Source: Muricea muricata (Eukaryota > Cnidaria > Anthozoa > Malacalcyonacea > Plexauridae). Taken from it: a stretch of DNA of 64,000 nt. Position 1 is the first letter of the stretch. Each line of letters opens with the position of its first letter. Below the pieces are notes generated by a model. The model was not told the DNA's origin, made no database searches, and worked only from the letters and a program-made list of their open reading frames with translations. A program made the position numbers and the translations under genes. Location of the stretch: positions 5,195,330 to 5,259,329 of the forward strand of contig OY979728.1 of the NCBI GenBank assembly GCA_963855995.1, read 5' to 3'. This document shows positions 33,661 through 55,110 of this stretch, piece after piece.

Positions 33661-36010
33661 ATTTTTGCCAACAAAGGATTTGCGTGATTTATTAATTTAA
33701 ACATTTTGTTTTTAAACATTTCAAATGTAGTTATCTTTCCTAACATGTATCGGCCCCAAACTTCGCTACAGTAAAGTAGTATTGGAATTACCATGCTTGA
33801 AAATAATTTAACAGTAAATTAATTGGTACATGATCAAAATTAGAGAATTTTGCAAACAGACAATGATAAGCACGTAAAGCTTTGTTATACAGGGCTTTTA
33901 GTGCCTTCTTGAAAGTTCCAGAAGAGTTGATTATTATGTTAAGACAACAATATTCATTCACGTGTTCTAAAACATTGCTGTCAAAAACCCAGTTTGTAGT
34001 AGCGTATGTGCGTCTCTGGGCTGGTGTCCCTATTAATAAAATTTTGGATTTTTTCTTGTTGATATCAAGTTTCCAACGATTGGTATACCTTTCAAGTTTC
34101 GTTAAACAGGATTGTAAACCCTTCTGGGATTCCAACAAAAGCACCAAACATCAGCATAAAGTAAACAGTTCAAATTTGTGTTACCCAATCTTACTGGGTC
34201 ACATGAGTCATCAAATAAGTTAGGTACATCGTTTATAAAAATGTTACACAGGGTAGGGCTAAGATTGCAACCCTGCTTCACACGAGTTGAAAAATGGTGT
34301 TGTTCCATCTTCTAGTTTGACAGAATACCTAACAGATGAATACATGCCCAAAATACATTTTAAGAATGATTTGCTACAACCGGATAGTAGCAGCTTGTAA
34401 AAAAGTCCTTCTCTCCATACGCTATCATAGGCCTTCTTAAAGTCGATGAAACAAGTAAAAATAGGTTTTCGCTTCAGCTTGTAACAGTCGATTATACTTT
34501 TTAATACTAGCAAATGGTCAGCTGTCCGATGTTTTCTGCGGAAGCCTATTTGGCATCTATTTATAATCTTATTTTCTTCCAGAAAATCATTTAAGCATGC
34601 ATTCATTATTAGAGTGAAAAGCTTTCCTAAACAACTGCTGAGACAAATCCCTCTATAATTATTCGGGTCACTAGCGTCACCTGATTTGTATATCGGTACA
34701 ATAAAACTTTCGGTCAATGAAAAGGGGAATTTTCCCTGGCTTAAAATAGTATTGAATAGACTTGTAAAATAAGAGGGTAACGTTTTGACAGCTAGTTCAA
34801 TAATTTCATTTGATAGGGAGTCGTTGTAGCTTTTTTGTTCTTTAGTTTTTTTGATTGTGTAGAGATCTCTTGAGGTGTAGTTGACCTATCAAGTGTATCG
34901 TTCTTTGGAATTGCCCATCGATCATAATCGTTGATAATTTGAGCTTCATGGCTATCTTTATCTGTTTTGAGGTGTATTCCGTTTAAATTTTCAAAGTAGT
35001 TAAACCATTCAGAAGCTTGTATTTCATTTGTTTTTGCCGATGATTGGTGTAATCTTATTGAGTTCACTAATTTCCAAAACTCCTTGGGGTTTTTATCAGA
35101 TAGGTTTCCAATTCTGTCTAACATTGCATTTTCAAATTGTCTTTTTAGTTTTCTCGTTAGTTTTTTGTATTCCTTCTTTTTGGAAAAAAAGTATGACGTA
35201 TAAAGGGGTCTGTCGGGTACTGTACCAGCAAACTAGCCCAAAACCGCACATTTCTTTTTAATGCATAGCAACTTTCATTATACCACTTTTTCCTTGACGT
35301 TTTTATTTGCATGTTTTCTTTGTTTTTTTTGTGAGTAGAATATTCTTGCTTGTATCTCGCAAGATTTGTGAAAAATCACTAACTAGTTTGTTGATGTCAA
35401 CTGAACTATTGGTTGTCTTATCTGGAAAAAACAATGAGTCCAATTTATGTTTAACTTCCTCTGATAACATAACATTTTGCAACTTTTCTTTTTTATTTTC
35501 ATTCCAAATCATATAGCCAGGGTGATTTGAAAGTCTCATAATATCTTTTACTTCTTGGGGAGTTTCAATTCTCATTACAACAGATAAACAGGAATGGTGA
35601 GTTAATTCTGTAGGGTTATGTACCGAAAAACTTTGTACAAATGGAAACAGATCTTGTGAGACAATGACATAATCCACAACACTTGCCCCATTGTATGTAT
35701 TACATGTAAATTGGCCAATCAATTTTTCTAATTTTCACCACACAAATTCCTCATTACTCTCTCTGTCTAGAAATTTTATTCCTTTTTTGAGAGATGATTT
35801 AACAAGAATAGTTATTCCCCCTGAATTTCGTCTTGCATTTTGGGCTTTTTCTTTACGGTGTTTAGAGTATGAATAGTAACCATCAATATTAATTTTCTGA
35901 TTACCTTAAGGTAGCCATGTTTCTACTAGGGAAATTAGGTCAAAATCTTTAATTTTTGATATAAAATCTGGATTATTAAGATGTCTACCATAAATTGGCC
36001 TACAATATCG

Positions 36011-44785: not shown

Positions 44786-46192
44786 CTAATCTTCAGGACA
44801 GTTGTCGCAGTAGCCTACTCGCCTAATTTCACCCTTTTCATTGTAATTTTGGCATTCAAGTGGATCTGCAGGAGTTGAACAGGCATTACATATTATGGTT
44901 GGGCAATTAACACACATGTACTTTGTATAGCGTCCGCATTCAGTACATCTATTAACCTTGTTGGCTGGTCTTGCTCTCTCAAAATGACTGCTGGGAGTTA
45001 TCGGGGATTGTTGTTGTGATGGTGGTGTACCGTATCCTGATGATGCAGAATGTGACGGTGGTGTTTGGAATGGCTGTGGAAAATTTGGCTGAGGTTGAAT
45101 TTGCATAAATGGGTTGTTTGCACTTCCTGTAGGTGTTGATCTCACTGATGAATTTCCCAAGAAATTTGGCATTTGCTGTTGCATAAACATTTGGGAACAC
45201 TGTTGCCAAGCTTGTTGAAATCCAGCTTGGAATCCTTGCTGCCATGCCATTTGCCAGGTGTTGCTATCAGTATTTGATGTGTTTGTTGACAAGCGTTCAC
45301 TAAGTACTTCCCATAATTTTGCTTTCTTCTCTTCATAATCATTTTTGGTCTTCTTCTTCTTAGGGACTGGAGCAATATGATTCAGTGTTGAAATTGTATC
45401 ATCTGGATTTGATTTGTCCAAACAAAATTCCATACTTGTATAGTATGGCCAACTTGTTTGGTAGACCTCATCTGACCCAGCACCTGATTTTTTGCTTCCT
45501 TCCATCCTCATTCTTTCTCGATCAAAGTATGTAGTCAGATTGTGCCATTCTTGTTGGATTTTTTCAACAGAATAACGAGAATCAAGCTGTCTGGCAAGAT
45601 GTTCCAAATTTACTCGTCTTATTAAATCTCTGTTTCGGTAATCTTCCAGCTGGAAATTCCAAAGCATTGGATGCTCTTTGTAATAATCTATCAGCTGCTG
45701 TCTATCCTCTTCACTGAATGCCAATTTTTCTTTTTGCTTCTCTTTCATAAAATCTATAAAATAATGAAATACTAAATGTTATCCTAATTTATTTACTAAA
45801 AATTTTGAGAATGTGATTGCAATTTGTTATTATTGTGGCTTCTCCAGCGACGAAAAGATTACCTCGCTCAATGTCTTCCTTCATAAACAACATGTCCTCA
45901 TAATGTACCCAAGGTTCTTCGGTTTTTTGGTAGGAGGTTCTTCATCATTAGCACTACCTTCTGTTTCCAAAATTCGTTTAACCTCTCGGCGCATGGATAT
46001 CCTAAGGCTATGAAATTTCTTTTGGAGAACCTTAATTGTATATTTCGAGCCAAGTGCTTTTACCAGTTGTTCTTTCGCTTTGTTTCGCATCTGCGATTTG
46101 TGGGATACTACTTATAGATGAACAAACTCACGCACAAACAAGAAACGTTTTATTGAAGTCACTCCCTTTGCCACAGATCCTGCACTACGCAT
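44786..46192 (-). pseudogene. two-MADF-domain protein of Harbinger element
   Basis: Exon A (46192-45863) begins MRSAGSVAKGVTSIKRFL and carries a first MADF (Myb/SANT-like) domain: VREFVHL, SHKSQMRNKAKEQLVKALG and LQKKFHSLRISMRREVK. A TAA interrupts it (near 46117), and a one-base slip in an A-run near 45925-45935 displaces its end, PWVHYEDMLFM. The intron is 45862-45754 (phase 1, GT-AG). Exon B (45753-44786) is fully open: a second MADF domain (DYYKEHPMLWN, LARQLDSRYSVEKIQQEW, SWPYYTSMEF), a basic KKKKTK run, a Gln-rich stretch and a C-terminal Cys cluster (RCTECGRYTKYMCVNCPTII, CNAC, CDNC). In this superfamily the second protein binds DNA and brings the nuclease to the ends. Exon B alone looks nearly intact. 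Confidence 0.8.
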
Positions 46193-47046: not shown

Positions 47047-47940
47047 CGATGCACTATCCAGTCTTAATACAGGGTGAGTAAAAAAAACTGATGAACTTTC
47101 AAATTCAAATTAGCCGCGAAATTCATTACGGTTTATTCCCAAAAAAGCTGACGCTATTGATATCACCTACTATTGTTAAAATTTGAATGGCCTAGCACTA
47201 CCAAGGCGCGATGACACTATATATGCACTTTGTCTCACGACGAATTTTTTTAAAGTGTCTATGAAACGAACTTTTTCCCACAATTTTCAATTGCATTAAA
47301 AGATCTGTTAAAATCACACTATAACTTCTTTGATAGAATTTTTATAACTGCTTTACTTTTCGAGATATTCAATTTTATTTTATTTGAAAATGACACACAA
47401 TTAGTGACGTCTTGTGCATAATCACTTTACAAAAATGCTGCATTTAATTTAAAAAGTACTCAAGATAGAACACTTGAATACCCAGGCATGGATATTAAAC
47501 ATAGTCTACACTGGCTACACTCGTGCAAGTGTAGTTTTAGTTATTTTCCCCTATTATATGCTACAAAATAAGCAATATGACGTCGGTGGTTGTGTTATTT
47601 GCGTATCCTATAAAGTTGAATATCTTGACAAGGAACGGAGCTACAAAAATTTTACCAAAGAAGTTATATTGTTATTTTATCTGATCTTCCCAATAACCAT
47701 CAAAATGTTGGACAAAATTTCGTTTCATAAACACTTTCAGAATTGGAATTTCGTAATCAGGGATGTTACACTGTGCAACATTTCTTGCAACATGTCTCGC
47801 AATCTCAGTGAAGACCGGGATCTATTTTTAAACAGCTAGTTTTTATTGGCCGCTCAACAGAAATATTGCAAGACAATTTGCAAGAGGGATGTTACACTGT
47901 GCAATGGCTAGAAAATGCATTGTAGCCTTGCGGCAATTGC
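47047..47940. other. spacer with MITE ends before the 2A LINE
   Basis: GGGATGTTACACTGTGCAA occurs twice (47760-47778 and 47886-47904) near TTGCAAGAC and CTTGCAAC strings, which look like ends of a Harbinger-type MITE related to the one at 6717-7145. The 121-codon frame at 47474-47839 has no recognisable domain. Confidence 0.45.
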
Positions 47941-47973
47941 TGCGAAAAGTAGAGCCTGATTCTACTTCGTGCA

Positions 47974-50900
47974 ATGCGGGGGTGCGCGTGCGCCGCGATG
48001 GCGGTTAGCCGCGGAATTTTACGCTCGTACAATTTAGTGCATATTTTGTATATTTATTTGATTCTTGGTGGTATTACAATTAAAAATAATACAAAAAAGC
48101 ATACTGAAGGCAATCTAGCAATCATTTTCATCTCCAAAGAACTCGCAAGTCAGAAACCACAGTACAACGAAAATTTACATAGATCAACGGTCAAACGGAA
48201 ATATTTAACAGCCTCAACTAAACCACTTATTGGAATGAGGATTTTTATTAACTTTTCTCTTGTTGCTATATTGATATGTTTGTCTGGCGACATTGAAACT
48301 AATCCTGGACCTTTAAATTTTGAAGTAAAAGAATGTCGTACAAGGGGACTCAAGGTATGCCATTTAAATATGAGAAGTTTGCTTCCAAAAATTGACAGTC
48401 TGCGTCTGTTTATCAATAAAAACCCGTTTGATGTAATTGCTGTATCGGAGACATGGCTTAAACCTTCAACTACGAATGCCGAAATAGACATTCCCAATTA
48501 CTCTATAACTCGAAATGATCGTACAGACAAAACTGGCGGGGGAACGGCATTTTATGTTCGTAATGGTCTACCGTTTCGCTCACGCGGGGATTTGCAAAGC
48601 AGTAACATTGAGACCTGTTGGATTGAAATCATACGTCCTAAAACAAAGTCCCTGTTTATTTGTTCAGTGTATAGATCACCAGATTTTAACATTCAAACTT
48701 TCATTGAAAATCTCAGAAACGATTTGTCTGAAATCCAAGAAAGTGCCGAAGTTATTCTTTTGGGGGATTTCAATGTCGACTACCAACTAAGATCAACGGC
48801 CAAATCACGTCTGCAAACACTTGCGCGTGCGTTTTCACTTGAACAGCTCATCACGTCGGCGACTAGAATAACGCAATCCAGTAAATCAACAATAGATCTA
48901 ATTTTTGCGAACAATATTCATCGCGTGGTAGCAAGTGGAGTTTATTCTTTAGATATCAGTGATCACTTCTTGATATTTTGTGTAATTAAAGCTGGTGTTG
49001 CTAAATCGGGTGGAAATTACCGCGACATTAATTATCGTTGCTACAAAAATTATAATCAACACAATTTTAAATACGATCTGGAGAATGTTGACTGGTCATT
49101 TATGGATTCCGTATCGGATATTAATAATACTGTAAACAATTGGTGCAATAAATTTTCAGAAATCGCAGACAAACACGCTCCTATTAAAACCAGGCGAGGT
49201 AAGTGCACGAATAAATCCCCTTGGATCACACCAGAATTAACGGAGTTGATGCATGAACGAGATTATCATCAAAAGCAAGCACATAAAACAAACTTAGAAT
49301 ACCATTGGCAACATTTTCGAGAACTCAGAAATCTCGTTAACAATCAAGTCAAGCTCGCTAAATCTAAGTATTACCAAGATTCCGTGAACGCTAATAAGAA
49401 TAATCCATACAACCTTTGGAAAACATTGAATGAATTAACATCTCGCACCAAATCTGGAACAAACCCGTCATGTATAATTTCTGAGGAAAAGCCTGTCACT
49501 GGTCAAAAGTCTATAGCAACAATCTTAAACGAATATTTCACTTCTATTGGGACAAAATTAGCAGATAAAATCAAGAACACATTTCGACCCAGAAACCCTT
49601 CACCAGCTACTGATCTTCCCTACAGCTTTGAATTCGAAGAAGTAGATGAATCATTTGTCCTTCGAGAACTTTCACTTCTGAAAACTAATAAAGCCACTGG
49701 CCTCGATCAGATTAATGCTAAATTATTAAAAGAGTCAGCCTCTACAATTGTATCTAGTTTAACAAAGATTTTCAATGCCTCGCTCCTCTCACAAACATTT
49801 CCAGATGTTTGGAAAAAAGGAAAAATCACTCCCCTCTTCAAATCCAACGATCCAACAGCACCAAACAACTACCGGCCTATCACTATTTTACCCATCATAA
49901 GCAAAATTATGGAGCGCATAGTTCACAGGCAAATCTTCAAGTTTCTACGAAAACACAATCTTATCACTTCGGAACAGTTTGGTTTTCGCCCGAATCTATC
50001 AACAAATGTCGCTTTAACGCGAGTCACTGAGGAAATTCTACTTAACATCGACAACAAATTGGTTACCGGTGCTGTTTTTATTGACTTGCGAAAGGCCTTC
50101 GACACAGTTGATCATACCCTATTAATTGCTAAATTAAAAAATATTGGATTTTCAGCACCTGTTATAAACTGGTTCACATCTTATTTATCTTCACGTACAG
50201 CAGTTACATCGATCAACAACATTACGTCGACTCCAAAGCCAGTAACTGTAGGCGTTCCACAGGGAAGTATTCTAGGACCTCTACTGTTTCTAATATTCAT
50301 TAATGACCTGCCTCAATGTTTGAAACACTGCAAACCTATTCTATATGCTGATGACACTTTGCTATACTACGCTGGGAAGACAGAAAACGATCTACAAGTT
50401 AAGATAAACGAGGACTTAAATTCACTCTCACAATTGCTTAACAACAATCTACTAACACTGAATTACGAAAAAACGAAATTCATGATCTTTGCCAACAAAA
50501 AGCAATCAACTAAAGTAGACATCACCATCGAAAATAAGAAAGTGTTGCAGGAATCATTGTTCAACTATCTCGGAGTAACTTTAAGCAGTGATCTAACTTG
50601 GCATAATCATATTGACAACATGATTACCAAAATCAACCAAAGACTCGGAGTATTACGAAGGCTAAAGGAATTCCTAGATCTGGACACGCGTTGTGTGTTG
50701 TACACATCGCTAATACTACCACTATTTGACTATGGAGACACAATTTGGGGTGACAAGAACAATTCCATATTAATGAACTCACTACAGGTGCTTGAGAACA
50801 AGGCAGCGAAAATCATTCTAAACCAACACCCGAGATATTCATCAACCAAAGCATTAGAAGAACTAAAATGGACAACGCTGACAACGAGAAGGCATAACCA

Positions 50901-51162
50901 CAGATGCACGTTTATCTACAAATGTATGAATGGCTTAATTGACTTTGATTTTGAATTAACAAAGAACGAAGACGTCCATGGACATAACACAAGACACCGC
51001 AGAGATCTACATTTACCACGAGCAAAGACGAACAAGGGAAAATAACGACCTACGTACCAAGCTGCTATAGACTTTAACAATCTGGAACATGAACTAAAAA
51101 ATGCTACTTCATTATATAACTTTAAAAAACTATTAAAAAGACGGTGTGTACACGAGGTATAA
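47974..51162 (+). CDS. CR1/L2-type LINE endonuclease-reverse transcriptase with 2A motif
   Basis: Open for 1023 codons from 47974. One TAA (51043-51045) precedes a further 38 in-frame codons (RPTYQAAIDFNNLEHELK, FKKLLKRR) to a second stop at 51160-51162, so the ancestral protein was about 1062 residues. Residues 88-104 are hydrophobic and lead into GDIETNPGP (105-113). Endonuclease: CHLNMRSLLP (129), SETWL (158), YRSPD (233), LGDFN (263), STIDLIFAN (305), SDHFL (329). Reverse transcriptase: PNNYRPI (630), FRPNLS (671), FIDLRKAFDTVDH (702), GVPQGSILGPLLF (760), YADD (791), FNYLGVTL (863). A methionine at residue 88 could be an alternative start, giving a signal-like segment ahead of the 2A. 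This is a non-LTR retrotransposon that nicks target DNA and copies its RNA in place. No other frameshift was found. Confidence 0.9.
48286..48312 (+). other. 2A-like ribosome-skipping motif (GDIETNPGP)
   Basis: Fits the D-x-E-x-N-P-G-P consensus exactly, in frame in the LINE ORF, after LVAILICLS. In known 2A peptides the ribosome fails to form the Gly-Pro bond, here between residues 112 and 113. The upstream product would be released with its hydrophobic leader and the downstream product would start Pro-Leu-Asn before the endonuclease. Activity is inferred from the motif. Confidence 0.85.
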
Positions 51163-51556
51163 ACCTCTCTTTCTCTTTCATTCTCCACTATATCACTTTT
51201 CACTTAATTACTAATCTTTCTCAGCTTTTCTCTCTCTCTTTATTTTCTCTGATTTCCATTTCAAACGCATCGCAGCGAAATGAGCATATGTATTTGTTTC
51301 GTCATTACACTGATTGAATTATTGTTTTTGAATAATGATCTTGAAGTGCGTTGTGTTTCGTTTCGATGCGGTTGCTTTTATATTATACATTATAAAGTTA
51401 TATGTATAAATTATATTGTATATATATGTTCATGTAAATGGTGCATGACTAAATATTTAATGTAATTTATAGAGTTGCAGGACCCCACTGAAAAACACTT
51501 CTGTGATGTGGGTATCCTGGGTAAATATGAAGTTAATAATAATAATAATAATAATG

Positions 51557-52818: not shown

Positions 52819-55110
52819 AAAGTGCGCATTAATAATTAAAGTTCAATTGTTGAAACATAACGATCGTAATTTCTTTATTTGAATACGTTTTGACCGTTAT
52901 GCTCATCTAATGACCAAGACTGTTACTTTTAGACCGCAGGTACCTTGGTATTCGAAGGAGATTCGTGAAGACAAGAGAGAACGTCAGCGTTCTGAAAGGA
53001 AATGATCTGCGGCCGATTTTGAGTTGTTTAAAAGGAAAAGAATCGGGCAATTTACTGGTAAAAGAAGCCAAATCGGTTTTTCTCATTGAATTTATTGATC
53101 AAAATGCAGATAGTAAAGGCAAGTTATTTCTAGCAGTGAAAAATCTCTTGGCTGAGAAGAAAACGTATGCTTCCCAGACTATCAGGATAAGATTGAGTTT
53201 GTAAAGGGATTAGGGTTGTACTTTGTGCATAAAGTTGCAAAACGTGTTGACGAACTTGATTTGGTGTCTATGGCTATGAATGATGTCCCAGAATATAGAG
53301 ATGACTCATGGATTCCACCTGTGTTTGAAAAGTTTATATTGCTGACTGATTATGATGTATGCATGCTCATTACGAACTTTAAGACTACATCCTGTTGTCT
53401 TCATCCCGTACCTACGCCTCCACTAAAATCATGTATCGAGCCTCTTATACCAGTGATTATTAGAATTATCTATAGCTTTTTGGAATCAGGCGTCTTTCCT
53501 AATGACTGAAAAAAAGGCCGTGGCCATGCTGTTGTTAAAGAAAACTGGTCTTGATCCGCTATTTACGAACTTGCGTCTCGTAAATAATTTATACTTCTAA
53601 GCGTGTTGAACGCTCGGTATTTCAGTCAAACTCACTGCAATCTGCTTATCTTCGGTACCATAGTACGGAGTCAGCGTTACTCAAAGTTAGAAATAATATT
53701 CTTATGAACATAAGCTGGCAGCGCATTATTCTACTTGTCCTTTTAGATATTATGGCCGCCTTCGAAACGGTAGATCATTGGATTTTGTTGAAAAGCTAAA
53801 CTTCTTGTTTTGGTGTACGTGGTAAGGTTTTGGAGTGGTTTTCTTCGTATTAATCAGGGCGTAGTCAGCGTATTTTGTTTGACGGGATCAACCTCGTCCC
53901 CAGGCGCTCTGATTGCTTTTTCTTGCGCGAAATACTGTCTCGCGTCCTACACGCAACAGTATTTCGCGCAAGAAAAAGCAATCAGAGCGCCTGGGGACGA
54001 GGCTGTGACGGGATTAGGTCAGACAGTTTTGATGTGTGCTATGGGGGTTCCTCAAGAGAGTTGCCTTGGTCCTCTTCTGTTTGTCATGTACATTTCAAAA
54101 CTTTTCAAAATGCATGCACACTTATCTGATGCCCACTGTTTTGCTGATGATATACACAACTATACCTGTCATTCAACCCTAATATCCTGACTATCAGTAG
54201 ATGTGGTGTCGGTCATAAACAAATGTATCGTTGACTTGAGGAAATGGATGTATCAAGACAAGTTAAAGATCAATGACGATAAAACTGAATTTCTCATTAC
54301 CAGATATAGACAACAACTCTTGAAGATCAACACTTGTTCGAATCGCGTTGGCTCTACTGACATTAAGTGCATAATTTGGAATCTTGGTTCAATTCAAATT
54401 TTTCTATGTCTACGCATATTTCTAAGTCGTGTGCCGGTGCTGCATTTTACTGGTTTCATAATATTAAACGTATCAATAGATTCCTTGGAAAAGAAAAGTT
54501 GGAATGGTTTTGCATGTGCTTTTGTTGCAAGTAGAATTGGACTGCAACGGACTGCTTTATTATTTACCAAACTGTGAAGTTGTCAAATTGCAGATAGTGC
54601 AGAACGCTGCGGCAAGACTATTAAAATCTGCTAGCAATAGTCATATCACAACATTTTAAAGGAATTACACTGGTTGCCAGTTAGGCTTAGAATTCATTTC
54701 AAGATTTATATTTTTACCTTTTAAAGCTCTTAACGGAATGGCGCCAGATTATATCATGGAGCTTATAAATGTAAGGAAACATGCACGCTGCTCGTTACGC
54801 TCCAATGCAAGACATTATTATTTCCAACCCTGTGGTGAAGATGCTTAAATCGTTTGGTGATAGATCTTTCAGTGTGGCTGCGCCAACTCTTTGGAATGCA
54901 CTTCCCGCAAACCTTCATAACATTAGTTCTCTATTTACTTTTAAATCTTGCCTGAAAACAACATATCTTTTTTAATTGGCGTTTTTGTATAGACATGATA
55001 AATGTTTTTTAATAATACTGATTGTAAATATTTTTAGGTTTTGTCATGCGCTTTTGATCATTATACAGTATGTAAAAAGCGCAATATGAATTAATAAATG
55101 ATTATATATA
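52819..55110 (+). pseudogene. L2-like LINE, heavily decayed
   Basis: Fragments in changing frames follow the LINE order: RPQVPWYSKEIREDKRERQR (about 52930), SMAMNDVPEYRDDSW, LHPVPTPPLKSCIEPLIPVI, GVPQESCLGPLLFVMYI (54045), HCFADDIHNY (YADD equivalent altered to FADD), WMYQDKLKINDDKTEFLI, LQIVQNAAARLL, ALNGMAPDYIMELI and SFSVAAPTLWNALP. The 3' end AAAAAGCGCAATATGAATTA near 55074 is L2-like. Stops, shifts and a hairpin insert (53889-54005) kill it. The endonuclease part is missing. A 5' stretch of about 72 bp (52819-52890) recurs at 61425-61491. Confidence 0.8.
53889..54005. mobile_element. 117-bp hairpin MITE with 9-bp duplication
   Basis: Arms CAACCTCGTCCCCAGGCGCT... pair almost perfectly over about 50 bp around a 17-bp loop. 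TGACGGGAT flanks both sides (53880-53888, 54006-54014). It interrupts the L2-like reverse transcriptase just before the GVPQ motif. A 9-bp duplication suggests a Mutator-like source. Confidence 0.85.

Follow-up and report, generated by a model that had tools for sequence, protein, structure and literature searches.

A 2A/StopGo motif behind an apparently selected leader peptide in a CR1/L2-like LINE of Muricea muricata

The element and its copies

A 64,000-nt stretch of the Muricea muricata genome (GenBank assembly GCA_963855995.1, contig OY979728.1, positions 5,195,330 to 5,259,329 of the forward strand; hereafter the window) carries a long interspersed nuclear element (LINE) whose single open reading frame (ORF) begins with a leader peptide ending in a 2A ribosome-skipping, or StopGo, motif. 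What can be read in the sequence is the motif itself, the 5′ end common to the copies, a conserved start codon, apparent selection on the leader and two hydrophobic segments. The frame is open over 47953-51045 on the plus strand (1030 aa) and matches Exo_endo_phos, the APE endonuclease domain (48367..48966, plus strand; PF03372, E = 1.3e-17), and RVT_1, the reverse transcriptase (RT) domain (49849..50583, plus strand; PF00078, E = 5.9e-39). The motifs HLN, SETWL, GDFN, SDH and YADD are all present, and the frame ends at an early stop codon (51043..51045, plus strand) about 38 codons ahead of the frame end in open relatives, so that an earlier reading made from the letters alone (hereafter the sequence-only reading) could fairly call the LINE almost intact. 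At its 3′ end (51477..51555, plus strand) lies a GCAGGACCCCACT...GGGTATCCTGG stretch followed by an (AAT)n tail, a boundary common to the copies L068 and L076 and alike in L069, L071 and L072. An APE domain followed by an RT domain in a single frame, with a simple-repeat 3′ tail, marks the element as an APE-type retrotransposon without long terminal repeats (non-LTR), and from this layout it presumably belongs to the CR1/L2 clade. No target-site duplication around the LINE was obvious by eye. Between the element 5′ end and the APE frame there is no separate ORF1, the element starting ~14 nt before the leader ATG. It thus resembles the single-ORF subgroups of L2 and CR1 described in the available part of PMC4120745, which likewise have one ORF and nothing separate upstream; it differs from them in having a leader that matches no Pfam family.

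The host assembly (453 Mb in 74 contigs) was searched with a 167-aa probe starting at what the sequence-only reading had numbered residue 88, which gave 150 scored places (2739 candidates). Thirty of the 150 were read (L038-L067), and longer stretches (L068-L087) were taken for 19 of these and one other; the window copy (WIN) together with L068-L083 will be called the close copies (n = 17). Over 3.58 kb the nearest copy, L068, shares 98.9% identity with the window, and the family has therefore probably moved recently. Three more subfamilies (L069-L071; L072-L075 with L083; L077-L080) show ~72-83% DNA identity. Between the window and L069 identity is 85-94% across the first ~350 ORF codons and 75-83% beyond (one bin 89%), and the synonymous divergence (dS) is 0.2 in codons 1-350 versus 0.8-1.1 in codons 351-1015; this step near codon 350 suggests a chimera between subfamilies. 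Three further copies, L060, L061 and L062 (C2:65571367, 65583521 and 65595675), agree in score, identity and translated context and follow one another at exactly 12,154 bp; they represent either an assembly repeat or a tandemly duplicated segment with a LINE in it.

The 5′ terminus and the start codon

Fourteen of the 17 close copies begin at 47979-47990, within ~20 nt before the ATG at 47998; the exceptions are L075, whose leader is interrupted and whose 5′ end was found apart, L078 (starting at 48011) and L082 (starting at 48114). Beyond the 5′ ends of copies from the four subfamilies the flanking sequences are unrelated. The terminus (47984..48006, plus strand), delimited from the copy starts and a genome scan, consists of a 5′ untranslated region (UTR) of ~14 nt and the start codon, that is, GCGCGTGCGCCGCG followed directly by ATGGCGGTT. 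The motif ATGGCGGT stands at the 5′ end of 13 of the 14 copies (not in L081), and the common sequence can be written as GCGCGTGCGCCGC, then G, C or A, then ATGGCGG, the UTR being shorter by a few nt in L071, L074 and L083. The sequence-only reading had numbered the 2A motif as residues 105-113 and the methionine at 48235 as residue 88. These numbers are right when counted from an ATG at 47974, but that ATG precedes the element 5′ end (~47984); counted from the conserved start at 47998, the 2A motif occupies residues 97-105.

A genome scan for GCGCGTGCGCCRCSATGGCGGTT allowing up to three mismatches returned 24 places, and its reversed control none. By coordinates, 22 of the 24 lie at a leader match (the exceptions being C1:41303483 and C3:18422754). 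Ten are exact, of which five (C1:103850203, C1:110605294, C2:51614276, C12:5093305 and C12:11656155) precede leaders only 28-33% identical to that of the window, the ATGGCGG start being kept even at this distance. Compared with the window, L092 is identical at 13/14 positions of the 5′ UTR, 14/15 of codons 1-5 and 42/105 of codons 6-40; the corresponding values are 5/14, 12/15 and 53/105 for L094, and 1/14, 9/15 and 29/105 for L086. Among the four subfamilies, fourfold-degenerate sites differ in 11 of 45 comparisons in codons 1-15 and in 10/22, 17/37, 10/20 and 27/60 over the rest of the leader, with fractions of 0.36-0.39 in the bins from the linker through APE and 0.52-0.63 beyond. Together with the kept terminus, this low divergence points to constraint at the nucleotide level over the first ~30 nt. 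The 23-nt terminus, kept while the leader diverges to ~30% identity, makes the starts of transcription and translation directly testable. Elsewhere, the leader of L011, from another sample, starts at CCAAGATGGCGT; those of L012 and L025 start without ATGGCGG. A search with 21 nt of the 5′ end against viral contigs gave no match.

Against a 12-mer consensus of the translation initiator of short 5′ UTRs (TISU), the start scores 9/12 in WIN, L069, L074 and L077, 10/12 in L092, L094 and L095, and 12/12 in L086; in the window the sequence likeness to TISU is thus partial. According to the partial text of PMC2518114, TISU includes ATGGCGG, lies at +5 to +30 of genes with a short 5′ UTR (median 12 nt) and binds YY1, and according to that of PMC11602158, YY1 sets the transcription start at the 5′ end of human L1. 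The LINE shares with both an ATGGCGG start near +15, and its 5′ terminus may have promoter and initiator roles. An NRF1-like match (11/12 in WIN, L069, L077 and L092; 6-7/12 in the other four), scored against a consensus, was given no weight.

The leader peptide and its 2A motif

The 2A core GDIETNPGP lies in frame at 48286..48312 (plus strand), as the sequence-only reading had it, with the predicted break after 48309, between G and the final P; the six frames of the window contain NPGP nowhere else. DNA coding for D(V/I/M)ExNPGP is found at 273 places in the host genome and at none when the pattern is read backwards, which puts the motif beyond chance. Within the core, DIETNPGP (48289-48312) conforms to the pattern (D/G/C/N)(V/I)ExNPGP. 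Directly before GDIETNPGP lies a hydrophobic, L-rich segment (48226..48285, plus strand; Kyte-Doolittle scan; hereafter segment 2) that holds the methionine at 48235, so the adjacency of a hydrophobic run and a 2A motif in an APE-type LINE was also seen rightly. As described in the available part of PMC12846837, viral StopGo sequences include an L-rich, LLLLSG-like class (motifs 2/6), and representatives of motifs 1, 3, 4 and 6 were all active in reticulocyte lysate. The window fits this class, its hexapeptide LICLSG being L-rich, ending in (A/S/C)G and followed by p12 = D; it differs from the viral members in being a retrotransposon, in having p15 = T and in having relatives with p14 = S or N. 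The adjacency is thus a known property of a StopGo class and not by itself a sign of secretion. GDIETNPGP is genuine and, judged from known StopGo biochemistry, very likely works as a StopGo, and the element probably makes a leader and an endonuclease-RT as separate products, as had been proposed.

The motif is also kept in the genome: related copies whose frames are open retain it, and the window and the representatives of its subfamilies have the canonical core complete, together with its context. Single copies with NPGH, NPGL or NPGF (L082, L083 and L087) look like decay. In the more distant loci L055-L067, taken unfiltered, NPGP is kept in 11 of 13 (missing in L056 and L059), so the site would be under constraint there too. 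Among five chosen lineages, pairwise identity is 77/90 over the 9-residue core, 44/100 over the 10 residues upstream and 7/100 downstream, a contrast biased upward because the five were picked for having the core.

The leader itself, delimited by the conserved start, the open frame and the substitution pattern, is a peptide of 104 aa (MAVSRGILRS...GDIETNPG; 47998..48309, plus strand). From 96 candidates, a 105-aa leader query yielded 79 places in the host genome with E no greater than 1; many of these align from Met1 to NPGP at 28-38% identity. No Pfam family matched the leader, and two weak matches to PDB chains (E = 0.11 and 0.7) were disregarded. Ratios of nonsynonymous to synonymous substitution (dN/dS, Nei-Gojobori) were obtained for six subfamily pairs drawn from four sequences; within subfamilies (L069/L070 and L077/L079) there were too few changes for use, APE of L069/L070 giving 2.08. 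For the leader with its 2A, dN/dS was 0.33, 0.21, 0.27, 0.21 and 0.33 in five of the six pairs, and for APE 0.09-0.25 in all six. Outside the ~30 residues nearest the skip, residues 1-75 gave 0.25-0.40 in five of the six, with at most 0.3% of bootstraps at or above 1 when saturated dS is counted as w = 0. This pattern suggests that selection acts on the leader at the protein level, more loosely than on the enzyme, and residues 1-75 appear to be under purifying selection in those five pairs.

Skipping mediated by 2A in LINEs is already a known class of finding. A 2013 study of 2A in LINEs and the work of Heras et al. (2006) on trypanosome L1Tc reportedly describe a 2A-like sequence in the APE-RT frame and a tendency to a single ORF. 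The present case differs from these in that the whole leader is delimited by the element 5′ end, appears selected as a protein in five of six pairs and can be traced across lineages, some of them with non-canonical cores. Among the titles and abstract beginnings covered, no published account of such leaders was recognised, which does not amount to a claim that none is in print.

The sequence-only reading had proposed that a signal peptide begins at Met88. Translation from there would give a 26-residue signal peptide ending in the 2A, as in sea-urchin NLR proteins, and incomplete skipping would route some of the endonuclease-RT into the secretory pathway. In S. purpuratus, one NLR sequence has been shown to be a dual signal/recoding element (available part of PMC4981915), and the methionine is present in the window and in the L069 and L077 groups. 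However, L072-L075 and L083 have Thr at this position, five distant leaders (L085, L086, L092, L093 and L094) have Cys, Leu or Ile, the conserved ATG at 47998 lies upstream, no more than ~20 nt from the element 5′ end in 13 of the 17 close copies, and residues 1-75 are apparently selected in five of the six pairs. Met88 was therefore rejected as a translation start, and entry into the secretory pathway by this route seems very improbable. In the LINE as in the sea-urchin SpNLR2A (partial text of PMC4981915), a 2A is linked to a hydrophobic, signal-like stretch close to the N-terminus; there signal and 2A form one N-terminal sequence, whereas here the 2A stands at residues 97-105 of a LINE polyprotein and the likely signal 71-81 residues upstream of the skip. 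In place of the Met88 signal model we put a longer, apparently selected leader that has its signal-like segment farther upstream and follows a 5′ UTR of 14 nt.

Hydrophobic segments, variant cores and relatives

A Kyte-Doolittle (KD) scan with shuffles places a first hydrophobic segment, signal- or anchor-like, at residues 12-28 (NLVHILYIYLILGGITI; 48031..48081, plus strand; segment 1). Thirteen leaders were scanned, ten from the host genome and three from other samples (L011, L012 and L025), leaving aside L095 as nearly the same as L094, additional copies from subfamilies already represented and, because the start was unclear, the frame broken or the leader redundant, L006, L013, L027, L032, L055, L056, L058, L059, L061-L064, L066 and L067. 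The best 17-residue window scored KD 1.49-2.61 near the N-terminus and 0.97-2.25 before the 2A, and in 10 of the 13 leaders no more than 52 of 2000 shuffles matched the N-terminal clustering of hydrophobic residues. From the end of segment 1 to NPG there are 71-81 residues in the ten leaders of the host genome; the distance is 71 in L025, 87 in L011 and 39 in L012. Of these three, L011 and L025 also have a hydrophobic segment close to the start, and L012 does not. The ribosome exit tunnel holds ~35-40 residues, so at the moment of skipping segment 1 would be outside the tunnel and segment 2 inside it. Segment 1 could thus target the nascent chain, since it would emerge early enough for the signal recognition particle (SRP) to bind and bring polysome and RNA to a membrane.

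The reading we favour, with a probability of roughly 0.6, is that of a recently active, single-ORF CR1/L2-like APE LINE that co-makes a leader in the place of ORF1 and frees its endonuclease-RT by StopGo. We infer that transcription would begin ~14 nt before the ATG at 47998 and translation at that ATG, in its TISU/YY1-like ATGGCGG context, giving the 104-residue leader. Segment 1 would leave the ribosome well before the skip site, and SRP could then bring the polysome with the element RNA to the membrane of the endoplasmic reticulum (ER) or nuclear envelope. Segment 2, still inside the exit tunnel when translation arrives at GDIETNPG, would together with the core trigger StopGo; the leader would come off as a membrane peptide of its own, and the endonuclease-RT would follow as a free protein with Pro as its first residue. 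If this is true, targeting of the nascent chain places the element RNA at the membrane.

Several observations weigh against this reading. The shuffle test was failed by L069 (221/2000), L060 (162/2000) and L012 (1683/2000). In the window, segment 1 reaches KD 1.83, compared with a maximum of 1.75 in the downstream ORF, and its summed value on an insertion scale is about +3.5; segment 1 is thus only moderately hydrophobic and its insertion into a membrane uncertain. L068, the closest copy, has a stop just ahead of SGDIE, and the own-genome leaders L060, L067, L085 and L093 start without ATGGCGG. The six dN/dS pairs are not independent, and the pair WIN/L069 gave 0.60 for the leader with its 2A, 0.83 for residues 1-75 (34% of bootstraps at or above 1) and 1.2 for residues 1-32. 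The last value would also suit a leader whose hydrophobicity is StopGo context with an inert lead-in, the released peptide having no job, as would the loose constraint on residues 33-75 (w = 0.32-0.69) and the membership of the L-rich context in one StopGo class (PMC12846837, partial text). Yet segment 1, at 71-81 residues from NPG, is too far upstream to be in the tunnel, and residues 1-32 have w = 0.10-0.32 in five of the six pairs; the start-proximal segment is moreover found in L011 and L025, though not in L012. We consider a leader without a function after release rather unlikely.

A further alternative is that StopGo is inefficient or absent and that the fused leader anchors the endonuclease-RT in the membrane. 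It could draw on sister lineages in which Ser or Asn replaces the near-invariant Glu of the core. At p14 of D(V/I/M)-x-x-NPGP-coding DNA, the host genome has Glu at 273 sites, Ala (GCN) at 99, Ser (TCN only) at 45 and Thr at 5, the reversed controls giving 0, 0, 0 and 1, respectively. At least 9 of the 45 Ser sites and at least 7 of the 99 Ala sites lie at or directly before leader or APE matches (by eye, among the matches listed); some of the leader matches concerned are weak, with E = 0.14 and 0.33 among those at Ser sites and E = 0.67-0.94 for four of the six at Ala sites, and the remaining sites could be of any kind. The Ala-core sites are assigned to sister lineages by coordinates only. 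Lineages with a Ser or Asn core, which include L085 and L086 (DVSR), L066 (DVSM), L093 (DVSL) and L060 and L067 (DVNP), still keep the leader. They do not form a single clade in the APE tree, in which deep supports are low, and we claim no direction of change. In viruses, p14 is almost only Glu, with His as a rare active variant and Gln cited as partly active (PMC12846837, available part). Against a fused anchor stand the full canonical core and context in the window and in its subfamilies' representatives, as well as NPGP in 11 of the 13 unfiltered distant loci, and we regard this alternative as very improbable. The non-Glu cores offer natural variants for probing StopGo tolerance outside viruses. 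Nine DVAxNPGP-type sites on one strand at C2:25.65-26.40 Mb, 30-480 kb apart, have the look of an array of genes that carry a 2A-like motif.

At four APE loci, L088-L091, no NPG motif was present in the ~1 kb fetched. In L088, a GDSL esterase match (E = 1.1e-5, under the Pfam cut-off) lies in frame before APE, and L091 has a GDSL match above the cut-off (E = 2.4e-9) in a frame that ends before the APE match; L090 has by eye a similar frame end, and L089, near-identical to L088 in APE, has no GDSL upstream. The esterase of the CR1-clade element ZfL2-1 binds liposomes, and a membrane role has been proposed by its authors (PMC3905857, partial text). This suggests that the leader may take over a membrane function of an esterase ORF1. 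Leader and esterase-type ORF1 (PMC3905857, same part) both stand before APE, with the difference that no sequence relation was found between them and that the leader has no Pfam match. More tentatively still, this LINE lineage might have swapped ORF1, an esterase in its sisters, for a membrane-targeted leader that carries the RNA, while it is being translated, to the nuclear envelope or the ER before StopGo acts. Cis-preference would then need no nucleocapsid-like ORF1, and the cores with Ser, Asn or Ala would be tuned or new StopGo variants shifting the balance between freed and anchored enzyme. This larger scenario is speculative and, as a whole, doubtful. For LINEs that retrotranspose although they lack ORF1, a selected, 2A-released leader is a concrete candidate as ORF1 replacement.

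Outside the host genome, protein-pattern scans of prokaryote and viral collections found no relatives. A tblastn search of plasmids returned 36 records (8 of the 10 listed lying over group II intron RT/maturase genes), a phage search three unannotated records, and a DNA-pattern scan for 2A two viral and 35 genome contigs. With the window ORF, tblastn at 1e-3 matched 6 of these 37 loci (L011, L012, L013, L025, L027 and L032) and none of the other 31. The six are contigs with bacterial or archaeal titles that encode LINE-like proteins with 2A, and are probably eukaryote DNA in prokaryote bins. Another locus, L006:1791-4444, binned as Planctomycetota, has two GDVEPNPGP motifs, after stretches that by eye resemble a CCHC knuckle and RNase H; it is perhaps an LTR retroelement with two 2A sites.

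Within the window, a different interspersed repeat, also present twice in L087, lies directly before the LINE (47735-47977). Fragments of other non-LTR elements, recognised by their similarity to the LINE ORF, occur at 34153-35965 (minus strand; RVT_1 at 34259-34885) and 53321-54331 (plus strand), and an open frame of 330 aa at 44786-45778 (minus strand) encodes a MADF DNA-binding domain.
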